From NCBI RefSeq assembly GCF_000695095.2, contig NZ_CP011454.1, positions 2,294,001 through 2,358,000 on the forward strand: a stretch of 64,000 nucleotides of DNA, read 5' to 3'. Below the pieces are notes generated by a model that did no database searches, had not been told where the DNA came from, and saw nothing but the letters and a program-made list of their open reading frames with translations. This document shows positions 12,836-15,733 of this stretch, one piece after another (the first letter of the stretch is position 1; every line of letters begins with the position of its first letter). Made by a program: the position numbers and the translations under genes. The stretch is from Gemmatimonas phototrophica. Its GTDB lineage: Bacteria; Gemmatimonadota; Gemmatimonadetes; Gemmatimonadales; Gemmatimonadaceae.

Positions 12836-12911
12836 CGCAGCTCCGACGAAAGGGATGAAAAAACAGTGGTGCGTGGCTCGACGGCGGCGATACCGACGTG
12901 GCCGTGCGTCC

Positions 12912-12969
12912 ATACCCGGAGCGGGACTCGAACCCGCACATCCTCGCGGATAAGGGATTTTAAGTCCCT
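12912..12969. repeat. distal attachment-site copy, 58-bp direct repeat of the tRNA-Leu 3' part
   Basis: Identical over 58 bp to 15649-15706. It covers the anticodon stem-loop, variable arm, T arm and acceptor 3' strand of tRNA-Leu(TAA), but lacks the 5' half, so it is not a functional tRNA. Such partial copies mark the far end of elements inserted into tRNA 3' ends. Confidence 0.92.
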
Positions 12970-13108
12970 TTTCAATAGACGCGGGACCGGTCTTCAGTTA
13001 TCCGCACCGAGTAGAAAACGAGAATACCCACAATCTGCATCGGGCGCCATCGACCCCGAACGAAGCCCGTACATCCCCCGAGGCGTCACCCGAGGTTATA
13101 GACGGGGC

Positions 13109-13339
13109 ATGTCGCGCGTCCGTATCGACGACGCCGGGTGCTGGATCCGGCACGAGGCTAAGAATAGCCAAGGGTATGGCTCGATTCGCGTCGGAGGCCG
13201 GAAAGGCCGTTCCGTCTTGGTGCACCAGGTCATCGCCGAGTCGCGATACGGCGCCATCCCATCAGATCGCATGGTTTGCCACACCTGCGAAGTCCGTACA
13301 CGCCGAAGCCGCATATACTCTCCGATAAAAGGGCGGTGA
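13109..13339 (+). pseudogene. HNH endonuclease fragment, frameshifted
   Basis: Residues from ATG 13109 read as the front of an HNH homing-type nuclease: DDAGCWIRHEAKNSQGYG, then VLVHQVIAESRYG and MVCHTCEVR, which carries the first zinc-Cys pair and the His of the fold. Intact relatives continue with a C-x-NPxHL-type motif. Here the frame diverges after CHTCEVR to a short basic tail. In the neighbouring frame TPKPHILS-like codons appear, so a small indel near 13290-13300 is likely. The open frame extends upstream of 13109 without a good start. The stop overlaps the arm of the next terminator. Presumed inactive. Confidence 0.65.
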
Positions 13340-13380: not shown

Positions 13381-13842
13381 CTACCGCTTCGTCGGCATGG
13401 GACTTAAGTCGCTGCGAAGCACCTTGCGGCTCAGTACGCGCTGTCCGTCTGGGCTCACAGTAAGACGGAAAAGTTCAATTCCCATCATACCAGGTTCGAT
13501 GTTGTTGAGCTCAAGCCTGACATCAATAAACTGCGTGCCCGCCGAGTCTTGGAGCGGACTCACTCTGAAGAAACGCCCCGTCATCGGACGCGACTTCGAT
13601 AACGAGCTCTTGAATTGCGCATAAGCGGCGTTGCCATGGGACTTGCAGGCCACACTCGTGTCCGCACGAAAACACTGGGGACGTGGTACGAAACTGTACG
13701 ACGACAGTTCCGAACCGAAACTCTCGATTACGGCGCGCACGAGCGCAGGAGAGGGTGTGGACTTTTTCCCCGATGGTTGTGCGTGCGACACACTGGCGCA
13801 AGCCAACAGCAGAGCCGAAAGCTGGAAACAAAGAGTTCGCAT
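13381..13842 (-). CDS. secreted protein of unknown function (element cargo)
   Basis: A protein of 153 aa. Residues 1-21 form a Sec signal peptide (MRTLCFQLSALLLACASVSHA, likely cut before QPSG). The mature part is small and basic, with two Cys (PQCF, VACK) that could form a disulfide and a beta-rich C-terminal half (FIDVRLELNNIEPGMMGIELFRL). I recognise no family. The ATG at 13842 is chosen because it begins the signal peptide; the open frame upstream reads through the neighbouring gene in another frame. The gap to the upstream lipoprotein gene is 34 nt and both lie between one promoter and one terminator, so they probably form a two-gene operon. Less GC-biased than its chromosomal neighbours. 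Confidence 0.72.
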   Translation of the reverse strand: MRTLCFQLSALLLACASVSHAQPSGKKSTPSPALVRAVIESFGSELSSYSFVPRPQCFRADTSVACKSHGNAAYAQFKSSLSKSRPMTGRFFRVSPLQDSAGTQFIDVRLELNNIEPGMMGIELFRLTVSPDGQRVLSRKVLRSDLSPMPTKR

Positions 13843-13876
13843 GGCTGGGATTGGTAGAGGGAGCCGCGCGTTCGAC

Positions 13877-14641
13877 TTACCGGCTGCAGTTTGGCGCCTG
13901 AGCATAGATTTGCGTATGTAAGTAGTTTCCAAGGTGCCCTGCCTCATGGCGTGCGATTTGAACGAACTCCGCGTCTGTTGGAGTGTATCCGCTTTTCCGT
14001 TTCCCGCTAAGCACGACCTGTTGTGCCGCATACTGGGTTCTTCCGAGTGATTCAGTCGTGTCATCCACCATAAACCAAGTTGATGACTTGTATATGGCAA
14101 ATTGCTGGGCGGCGTTGTACAGCGCATAACCACTCCGAAAGCAGTATTCGCCAGTGTTCGAGTTCATCATTCGTAGCGCAGTGGCCATGATTGAGTCACG
14201 AAGTGCTCCTTGAACGGGGGTAAGGATGCACGTCGAAGATCCGGGTGGATCGCAGTGGGTGATTAGTTGCTGAATCGTTGGTTGTGGCTCCCCCCCGCCA
14301 CCGCAGTCTACCGTGCACGTTGAACCACCGCCCTCAGAACCTCCACATGGCATACCCGGATTACACGAGCCGTCATCGCCGGGGGTTGGAGCCTCAGGGT
14401 CCTCCGGGAAGTAATCGTCGCATTGCGGTTGCGACGGATCTTCCTCGCACGGCTGATCGTACCACTCGCATGGCCAATAGTAGGTTCCTGTAGACGTGAC
14501 TGTGTGGGTGCAAGACCAAGACGCTCGTGGAGACAACGATACCTCTGCATCGGCCGGCGCGGTGGGGTTTTCGCCACACGCAGTTGTGATGGATAGAACT
14601 AGCATACACAACGTCAATGATACTCTTCGAAGCAAAAACAT
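13877..14641 (-). CDS. lipoprotein with HExxH zinc-metalloprotease motif (element cargo)
   Basis: A protein of 254 aa. The N-terminus is a lipoprotein signal (SLTLCMLVLSITTAC, Cys at about 22). Next comes a long Pro/Gly/Asp/Cys-rich spacer (residues 45-125) with many Cys pairs (e.g. DPSQPQCDD, CNPGMPCGG, CTVDCGGGG). The C-terminal ~100 residues include IARHEAGHLGNYLH, an HExxH followed by a third His six residues later, the pattern of a zinc-metalloprotease active site. The spacing HExxHx5H differs from the metzincin HExxHxxGxxH. The protein ends soon after the motif, so the fold is compact. Good promoter (14689-14717) and GGAGGA Shine-Dalgarno at 14648-14643. Proteolytic activity and substrate are unproven. 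Confidence 0.78.
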   Translation of the reverse strand: MFLLRRVSLTLCMLVLSITTACGENPTAPADAEVSLSPRASWSCTHTVTSTGTYYWPCEWYDQPCEEDPSQPQCDDYFPEDPEAPTPGDDGSCNPGMPCGGSEGGGSTCTVDCGGGGEPQPTIQQLITHCDPPGSSTCILTPVQGALRDSIMATALRMMNSNTGEYCFRSGYALYNAAQQFAIYKSSTWFMVDDTTESLGRTQYAAQQVVLSGKRKSGYTPTDAEFVQIARHEAGHLGNYLHTQIYAQAPNCSR

Positions 14642-14688
14642 ATTCCTCCGATCTGGACTATTACAATTCGCGCCATTTGCGCGAAGCC

Positions 14689-14717
14689 ACGATATGAAGC
14701 GGTACAGAAGTCGTCAA
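14689..14717 (-). promoter_or_regulatory. sigma70-like promoter of the lipoprotein/secreted-protein operon
   Basis: TTGACG (14717-14712), 17-nt spacer, TATCGT (14694-14689) on the minus strand, about 48 nt before the ATG, within an AT-rich stretch. One of the best promoter matches in the window. Confidence 0.65.
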
Positions 14718-15002
14718 TAGAAACCTTGTGCAGATTTTTTCCGCTGAGTGCCTGCATCGCAGTTCTGTTTAGTTTCGACTGACCGGTCTATACCATGTTT
14801 AGCACGCCCCTTATTGTTTGTTCGCATGCAGCACGCCGTTGAGTGCGAGGACGCCGACGCCGACGTCACGGTGGTAGAAGACACGAGCACACACGTGTTG
14901 GCCGCGATCACGTGCACGTCGGCGTTGCGGGAGCGACTCGCGGCGCGGAAGGCGCCGGAGCCGGTGGCTGAGCGTGTGCCGGGCGAAGAGGGCTGATCGT
15001 CC

Positions 15003-15176
15003 ATGTCCAAGCCCGCCGTCGTGCGCTACATCGCCGCACTCTCCCCCACCGAAAGCGGACGCCTCCTCAATGCGCACGAGGTGAGCGACAGCGTGTTCGG
15101 TGGGCAGGTGAGCAAGAAGTGGGTATGTGCCAAACCTGGGCACTATTGTCACGTGGTCGGGCGGATAGTGCTCTAG
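15003..15176 (+). pseudogene. excisionase/AlpA-like DNA-binding protein, truncated
   Basis: A 57-aa frame begins MSKPAVVRYIAAL and contains LLNAHEVSDSVFGGQVSKKWV, which resembles the winged-helix DNA-binding motif of MerR/AlpA-type excisionases (LLxxxEVAxxxxxxxxxVxRWI). The expected continuation (a basic wing then an acidic tryptophan-bearing helix) is missing; the frame instead ends in an unrelated tail. Its place next to the integrase remnant and the tRNA fits an xis gene. Assignment rests on motif resemblance only. Confidence 0.45.
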
Positions 15177-15186
15177 ATACGTAGGC

Positions 15187-15479
15187 GAAATCCGCGCATG
15201 GGTGGGATCTTTGCAACAGGTGGCGTCCGGAGTTAGCGAGCTTCGGTTGCATGACATCGTGCGCCTGTTCGGACAGACCGCCGCTGACGAGAACGTCTCC
15301 GCGGTGCATAAACACGCACAAATGCGACATTGCGACCCGCGCATGACCGGCCGGTACAAGATGCCTGCGCAAGCACGCCAGGCGGCTGAAGCAGTCGCCC
15401 GTCGGCTTGGCATCGTAAAGCCGACGAAAAAAAGCCCGCGAAGGGCGATGGACTTAATCTGGGGACTATTGTGCCCTAA
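15187..15479 (+). pseudogene. tyrosine integrase C-terminal remnant
   Basis: The translated stretch LRLHDIVRLFG ... MRHCDPRMTGRY matches the C-terminal catalytic part of tyrosine recombinases (normally LHDLRHTF ... LMRHxDPRMTxRY). The catalytic His-x-x-Arg is disturbed, the Tyr is kept, and the rest of the protein is absent. After the Tyr the frame continues RQAAEAVARRLG; a shift near 15425-15440 would restore an ending read as GDGLNLGTIVP with a stop at 15477. It abuts the tRNA-Leu copy, as integrases usually do. Certainly non-functional as it stands. Confidence 0.6.
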
Positions 15480-15648
15480 CTGCCAGCGAACGACCCAATG
15501 CCGGGGGCCGACCGATCTGGCCATCGCGAGCTCGCTCACGCTCAGTGAGGTCCAAATGAATGTAGCCCGTCCACCATTTCAGGGGATACGTCCCCTGAAT
15601 CCTCCCCCGACCGCGACAGACTGAGTCGGGGGCGAGGATCGCAAGTCT

Positions 15649-15706
15649 ATACCCGGAGCGGGACTCGAACCCGCACATCCTCGCGGATAAGGGATTTTAA
15701 GTCCCT
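15649..15706. repeat. proximal attachment-site copy inside tRNA-Leu
   Basis: Identical to 12912-12969 over 58 bp, and forms the 3' portion of the intact tRNA-Leu gene. Identity stops at the 5' end of the anticodon stem, consistent with crossover in the anticodon-loop region. Confidence 0.92.
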
Positions 15707-15733
15707 CGCGTCTACCGGTTTCGCCATCCGGGT
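15650..15733 (-). tRNA. tRNA-Leu(TAA)
   Basis: 84 nt with a seven-pair acceptor stem (ACCCGGA/TCCGGGT), anticodon stem AGGGA/TCCCT around loop CTTAAAA (anticodon TAA), a long variable arm as in class II tRNAs, and GGTTCGAGTCC in the T arm. The 3' CCA is not encoded. It is the insertion target of the neighbouring element. Confidence 0.95.

Follow-up and report, generated by a model that had tools for sequence, protein, structure and literature searches.

An orphan two-gene unit for exported-type proteins in a prophage remnant of Gemmatimonas phototrophica

Introduction

Among the closest described systems is a phage-derived gene pair of Listeria, which encodes Mtz, a secreted metzincin, and Tim, a TIMP-like lipoprotein. 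Mtz-Tim is reported to change the cell wall and to make cells more sensitive to lysis by phages, an effect that apparently follows cleavage of Tim by Mtz (PMC8235301). The same report gives the metzincin signature as HExxHxxGxxH/D, with Gly at the eighth position, together with a Met-turn (PMC8235301). For temperate phages of Streptococcus, the lipoprotein Ltp is reported to be involved in superinfection exclusion (PMC3952083).

Here we analysed a stretch of 64,000 nucleotides from Gemmatimonas phototrophica (NZ_CP011454.1, positions 2,294,001 to 2,358,000; hereafter the window), in which two genes, A and B, lie within the remnant of a prophage. The pair resembles Mtz-Tim of Listeria monocytogenes in that adjacent genes of a phage remnant encode exported proteins, one with an HExxH motif and one a lipoprotein (PMC8235301). 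However, in Mtz-Tim the protease is secreted and its partner is the lipoprotein, whereas the HExxH protein A is itself the lipoprotein. Mtz carries HExxHxxGxxH/D and a Met-turn, whereas A has Asn in place of Gly and no Met-turn, and Mtz-Tim is associated with a CI/Cro-like switch, whereas no repressor genes were seen in the element that holds A and B (PMC8235301). By analogy, the pair could be a counterpart of Mtz-Tim in which the protease is the anchored member. With the Ltp-type superinfection-exclusion lipoproteins, A shares the property of being a prophage-encoded lipoprotein (PMC3952083), but it showed no sequence match to this type in PHROGs or PADLOC.

Results

A prophage remnant at tRNA-Leu(UAA)

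An element of 2,737 bp lies in the 3' end of tRNA-Leu(UAA), and all of its identifiable phage genes are broken. The element and its borders comprise the following features:

12908-12969, no strand, outer att repeat, a displaced copy of the 3' end of tRNA-Leu (62-nt direct repeat)
13100-13300, plus strand, truncated phage HNH endonuclease gene (profile matches)
14825-14996, plus strand, 3' end of a phage recT gene (DNA identity to an intact recT in the congener G006)
15003-15173, plus strand, 57-aa remnant flanked by the recT and integrase tails (open frame)
15229-15408, plus strand, C-terminal piece of a tyrosine recombinase (integrase), 43% identical to L060
15645-15706, no strand, inner att repeat, within the functional tRNA-Leu(UAA) gene, repeat partner of 12908-12969
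15650-15733, minus strand, functional tRNA-Leu(UAA) (tRNA gene call)

The two att copies are 2,737 bases apart and identical at 61 of 62 positions, with the lone difference falling outside the called tRNA gene. The HNH piece matched PHROG 826 (E = 3.6e-14) and eight other HNH/endonuclease PHROGs (E up to 0.072), and its match to Pfam HNH_3 (E = 0.0061) fell short of the Pfam cut-off; the frame continues to 13336 without the remainder of the domain. The recT tail has 76% nucleotide identity with the end of an intact gene in G006 (L073:7504-7678), the product of which matches Pfam RecT (E = 1.9e-35). The integrase tail, in which the LHDLRH box is changed to LHDIVR, resembles a 398-aa frame (L060) with a Pfam Phage_integrase match (E = 9.5e-12). 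From its position and appearance, we take the 57-aa remnant to be what is left of an excisionase or another DNA-binding protein; it had no match in Pfam or PHROGs, and neither this remnant nor the recT tail had a viral relative in IMG/VR. With phage recombination and integrase genes (recT tail, HNH and integrase tail) inside one insertion, attachment-site repeats at its ends and an empty site in relatives, the element is a prophage remnant that has lost nearly the whole phage genome. An earlier reading of this DNA, made from sequence only, had described a decayed element with broken mobility genes and A and B as its only intact genes. This description is borne out, as A and B are the only whole frames left among truncated pieces, and the element can now be identified as a former prophage.

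We compared the insertion site with 29 other genomes of the genus. In 21 of them the site is empty, with the left flank and tRNA-Leu at most 300 bp apart; in six it was not resolved (G001, G003, G007, G012, G017 and G028). One congener (G020) carries an unrelated 1.3-kb insert at the site, and in another (G021) an open 378-aa integrase frame (L054:879-2106; Pfam E = 9.8e-6, marginally under the cut-off) abuts the same tRNA-Leu, with the left flank not seen there. Because G021 has another integrase gene at the same tRNA, tRNA-Leu(UAA) is a site that is used repeatedly, and it is occupied by a dead prophage in the window, an integrase frame in G021 and an unrelated insert in G020. Gene A was found in none of the 29 congeners, nor was the DNA of the element, save for pieces of the recT tail in two. 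No cargo resembling A and B was seen in the prophage stretch of G006, in the stretch of G021 by the same tRNA or in the insert of G020.

Two further observations concern these relatives. The G006 stretch (L073:5555-9749) is itself prophage-like, with genes for a YqaJ exonuclease, RecT and an integrase, and its recT end is the one that matches the remnant in the window. Additionally, tRNA-Leu and tRNA-Gly are separated by about 4.4 kb in G021, G004 and G001 (L054, L055 and L056) and by about 60-190 bp in most other congeners; read by eye, this stretch of G021 encodes sensor-kinase- and response-regulator-like proteins.

A two-gene unit on the opposite strand

Genes A and B form a unit at 13381-14641 on the minus strand, between the HNH and recT pieces and opposite to the phage genes:

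13329-13363, minus strand, hairpin terminator of the unit, followed by a short U run
13381-13842, minus strand, gene B, 153-aa exported-type protein (ORF and Cys positions)
13877-14641, minus strand, gene A, 254-aa lipoprotein-type protein (ORF, lipobox and Shine-Dalgarno)
14689-14717, minus strand, candidate sigma-70-like promoter (TTGACG-17-TATCGT), well placed upstream of the unit

The start of gene A is preceded by GGAGGAAT, and a Shine-Dalgarno, GGAGG, lies before the gene. Its product begins with an Arg-Arg n-region and a hydrophobic stretch, followed by the lipobox TTA-C22. This combination of signal peptide and lipobox Cys identifies a lipoprotein under a permissive pattern, and TTA-C22 departs at -3 from the stricter L-[AS]-[GA]-C consensus. 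Eight of the 14 Cys of A fall at residues 44-113, in a linker rich in Asp, Glu, Pro and Gly that leads into a C-terminal domain ending with RHEAGHLGNYLHTQIYAQAPNCSR. The string HEAGHLGNYLH occupies residues 232-242, with HEAGH at 232-236 of 254 and the third His at 242. Gene B starts 34 bases past the stop of A, with no Shine-Dalgarno visible before it, and its product has a signal peptide at about residues 1-22 and four Cys, two of them in the mature part (Cys57 and Cys66). The two ORFs, the lipobox, Cys-rich spacer and terminal HEAGHLGNYLH of A, and the small secreted-type character of B were thus found as the sequence-only reading had given them.

The overall G+C content is 0.545 for A and 0.561 for B, versus 0.61-0.67 for native genes. 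By codon position it is flat in A (0.545/0.541/0.549) and intermediate in B (0.545/0.506/0.63), compared with a third-position G+C of 0.745-0.838 for native genes in the window.

The same reading had considered promoter, Shine-Dalgarno and terminator all intact, which holds in part. The terminator hairpin after gene B has 16-nt arms that are 94% complementary, and the folded 55-nt stretch reaches -30.3 kcal/mol (z = -6.55); it was not listed by a simple consensus scan, which demands more T. Together with the Shine-Dalgarno of A, this signal stands, but no Shine-Dalgarno is visible before B, and the promoter was not confirmed, as shuffles of the region gave 1.4 +/- 1.2 such sites and the candidate at 14717-14689 is therefore no more frequent than chance.

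Searches for relatives of A and B

Gene A had no homologue among 100 relatives; besides A itself, the one match was a low-complexity stretch that is out of frame (L002, E = 1e-4) and was rejected on its reading frames. The last 135 residues of A, searched against 395 genomes of the phylum at E up to 5, gave matches in 138 genomes, its own included. We assessed 19 non-own loci among the matches listed (L005-L023), of which L005, L015, L008, L014, L016 and L022 were read in frame and the remainder were judged from alignments alone, and accepted no homologue of this C-terminal part among the matches listed. Of the loci read in frame, some were unrelated frames, one was an FtsH-like protein, and the others were larger putative peptidases that have nothing but the HEAGH region in common with A. 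Two others had tblastn E-values in the 1e-4 to 1e-5 range in a tiny database: L006, judged from its alignment, lacks HExxH, and L013 contains stops and looks like ribosomal protein L13. For gene B, the single match in the 395 genomes was B itself. Neither gene was found in GTDB contigs, IMG/VR, phages or plasmids, bar one phage match for B with E = 0.6, where the contig scans depend on exact matches to short peptide patterns and overlook relatives that are distant. Further, A and B had no accepted match in Pfam, NCBIfam, PHROGs, PADLOC or PDB sequences. The search of other genomes that had been proposed as a check has thus been carried out, and it returned no homologue in the collections searched, which is one half of the outcome that the sequence-only reading had named as speaking against it.

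Partial resemblances of A were restricted to short segments. Residues 185-222 (13976-14089) matched ribosomal protein L13 (NCBIfam TIGR01066, E = 0.0097) with 15.7 bits against a cut-off of 93, and comparison with the organism's own rplM gave no significant DNA match and a protein E-value of 0.004. FtsH (M41) aligned briefly over the HEAGH helix (L008, 48% over 31 aa), as did putative peptidases of 350-420 aa from the phylum with HEAGHAINY (L014, L016 and L022, RHExGHAxNY). All these FtsH and HEAGHAINY alignments cover the motif region only, and the proteins continue for well over 100 residues past the motif, whereas A ends 18 residues past HEAGH. The L13 and FtsH likenesses overlap within A, therefore descent from both is impossible, and we treated both as chance. 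In the organism's own genome, a DNA pattern for HEAxH occurred at 63 places, versus 32 for the reversed control; among the 30 of the 63 that were read by eye, none save A is a small exported protein whose motif lies at the C-terminus. Literature searches on prophages of Gemmatimonas phototrophica and Gemmatimonadetes listed nothing on the locus by title or start of the abstract, which is not proof of its being undescribed.

Motif and predicted structure

In residue shuffles of mature A, HExxH arose in 0.49% and HExxHxxxxxH in 0.0035%. The latter string is therefore unusual, but it had been noticed before it was tested. No significant match of A to a peptidase family was obtained in Pfam, NCBIfam, PHROGs or PDB (phmmer). 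HEAGHLGNYLH has Asn where the metzincin signature requires Gly, and the 12 residues after His242 contain no Met, Glu or Asp, hence neither a Met-turn nor a third ligand downstream, besides His242 itself. Judged by these residues, a zinc site in A, if there is one, must be completed by His242 or by a residue upstream.

Structure prediction, likewise proposed as a check, gave low-confidence models, with a mean pLDDT of 38.6 for A from its single sequence and of 55.8 for B. According to the weak model of B, the signal peptide is followed by one helix and six strands. Its fold searches reached a best E of 0.36 in Foldseek and a VIA Z of at most 5.6, under the tool's meaningful level, with hits scattered among NTF2-like, StART-like, cystatin-like and DUF2874/BLIP-like chains. 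A VirB8-, TIMP- or BLIP-like fold is possible for B in this model, at a Z of at most 5.6. As no family match, homologue or confident fold was obtained, it is the HExxHxxxxxH string that carries the protease idea. We consider zinc binding by A conceivable, at somewhat less than an even chance, its being a peptidase doubtful, and a role of B as partner of such a protease unlikely.

Competing explanations

One alternative is that A and B yield no functional protein and are relics or frames open by chance. This would agree with the lack of homologues found, with the flat codon-position G+C of A and with a frame of 255 codons from stop to stop that runs antisense to the integrase tail (14814-15578, minus strand), because of which long frames evidently can arise here without coding. 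Dinucleotide shuffles of the element point the same way, since 57 of 400 contained a frame of at least 200 aa. However, only one of the 400 had such a frame with a lipobox and none had one with both lipobox and Shine-Dalgarno, under a rule set after A had been seen, and the unit combines signal peptides in both consecutive genes with a terminator, a lipobox and a Shine-Dalgarno, which argues against chance. We therefore regard this explanation as quite improbable, and A and B as probably real, acquired genes. If so, A might be a non-enzymatic prophage lipoprotein that blocks superinfection, with B as a periplasmic helper or unrelated and the HExxH fortuitous. That lipoproteins carried by temperate phages can act in this way is known from Ltp (PMC3952083), and A matches no protease family; but it resembles none of the PHROG or PADLOC models, and the rarity of HExxHxxxxxH in shuffles speaks against a fortuitous string. 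We regard the superinfection block, too, as improbable.

The sequence-only reading had taken intactness to suggest selection and had named, as one hypothesis, a surface protease with a secreted substrate or inhibitor; the explanation that follows from it is a selected operon kept for host benefit. Both frames, the terminator and the Shine-Dalgarno of A are indeed intact, and Mtz-Tim provides an example of this kind (PMC8235301). Against the protease stands that A has no family match, homologue or confident fold, and against selection that intactness is compatible with youth, given att repeats identical at 61 of 62 positions, and that neither A nor the element (recT-tail pieces aside) occurs in any of the 29 congeners. 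In simulations with indels set at a tenth of the substitution rate, both frames survived neutrally with frequencies of 0.54, 0.28, 0.13, 0.02 and 0.002 at 0.5, 1, 1.6, 3 and 5% divergence, so that the att divergence of 1/62 (1.6%) corresponds to about 0.13. As one difference in 62 cannot separate the simulated ages, the dating is too loose for a decision on selection; the remnant may be young, and gene conversion could have kept the att repeats similar. Both frames may plausibly have survived under neutrality, the step from intact to selected is not supported, and we judge the selected operon distinctly unlikely.

Discussion

Phage 'moron' cargo is often oriented against the phage genes. Phage cargo would agree with the position of A and B, with the terminator that the unit has for itself and with a G+C content below that of native genes; the status is assigned by position only, because no homologue of either gene was present in any phage or prophage searched. 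We give about even chances to the reading that A and B are accessory cargo of the prophage, with no mechanism attached. That they belonged to the original phage rather than arriving later seems fairly likely to us, and a later insertion of the pair into the element is possible.

A temperate phage entered the 3' end of tRNA-Leu(UAA), and of its genome no more than 2,737 bp are left. Under the prophage-cargo reading, A and B would be accessory ('moron') genes in this remnant, with their own terminator and opposite to the remaining phage genes. A would be an exported protein with a lipid anchor at Cys22, the Cys-rich linker keeping the C-terminal helical domain off the membrane, and would act as an envelope protein of lysogenic conversion, while B would be released to the periplasm or outside. 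As mechanism we propose that the C-terminal HExxHxxxxxH helix of A would bind zinc and cut an envelope protein, with B as its partner, either substrate or inhibitor. In its fullest form, this would amount to a new phage-encoded envelope system, in which a minimal zinc peptidase, anchored as a lipoprotein and bearing its motif in the final helix (HExxHxxNxxH, no Met-turn), and a secreted beta-rich partner were retained by the host after the death of the phage; we consider this form highly improbable.

We read A and B as an orphan pair of exported cargo genes left in a prophage that has decayed. The finding is real, if modest, and does not amount to a demonstrated metalloprotease system. With nothing similar in the collections searched, A and B look like ordinary virus cargo. 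The main lesson of the case is that frames which have stayed intact give little evidence of selection when the prophage remnant around them may be young. Phage-borne accessory genes are a route by which prophages change the surface and the phage resistance of their hosts. If A were a peptidase, it would represent a very small membrane-anchored type of zincin without known relatives.
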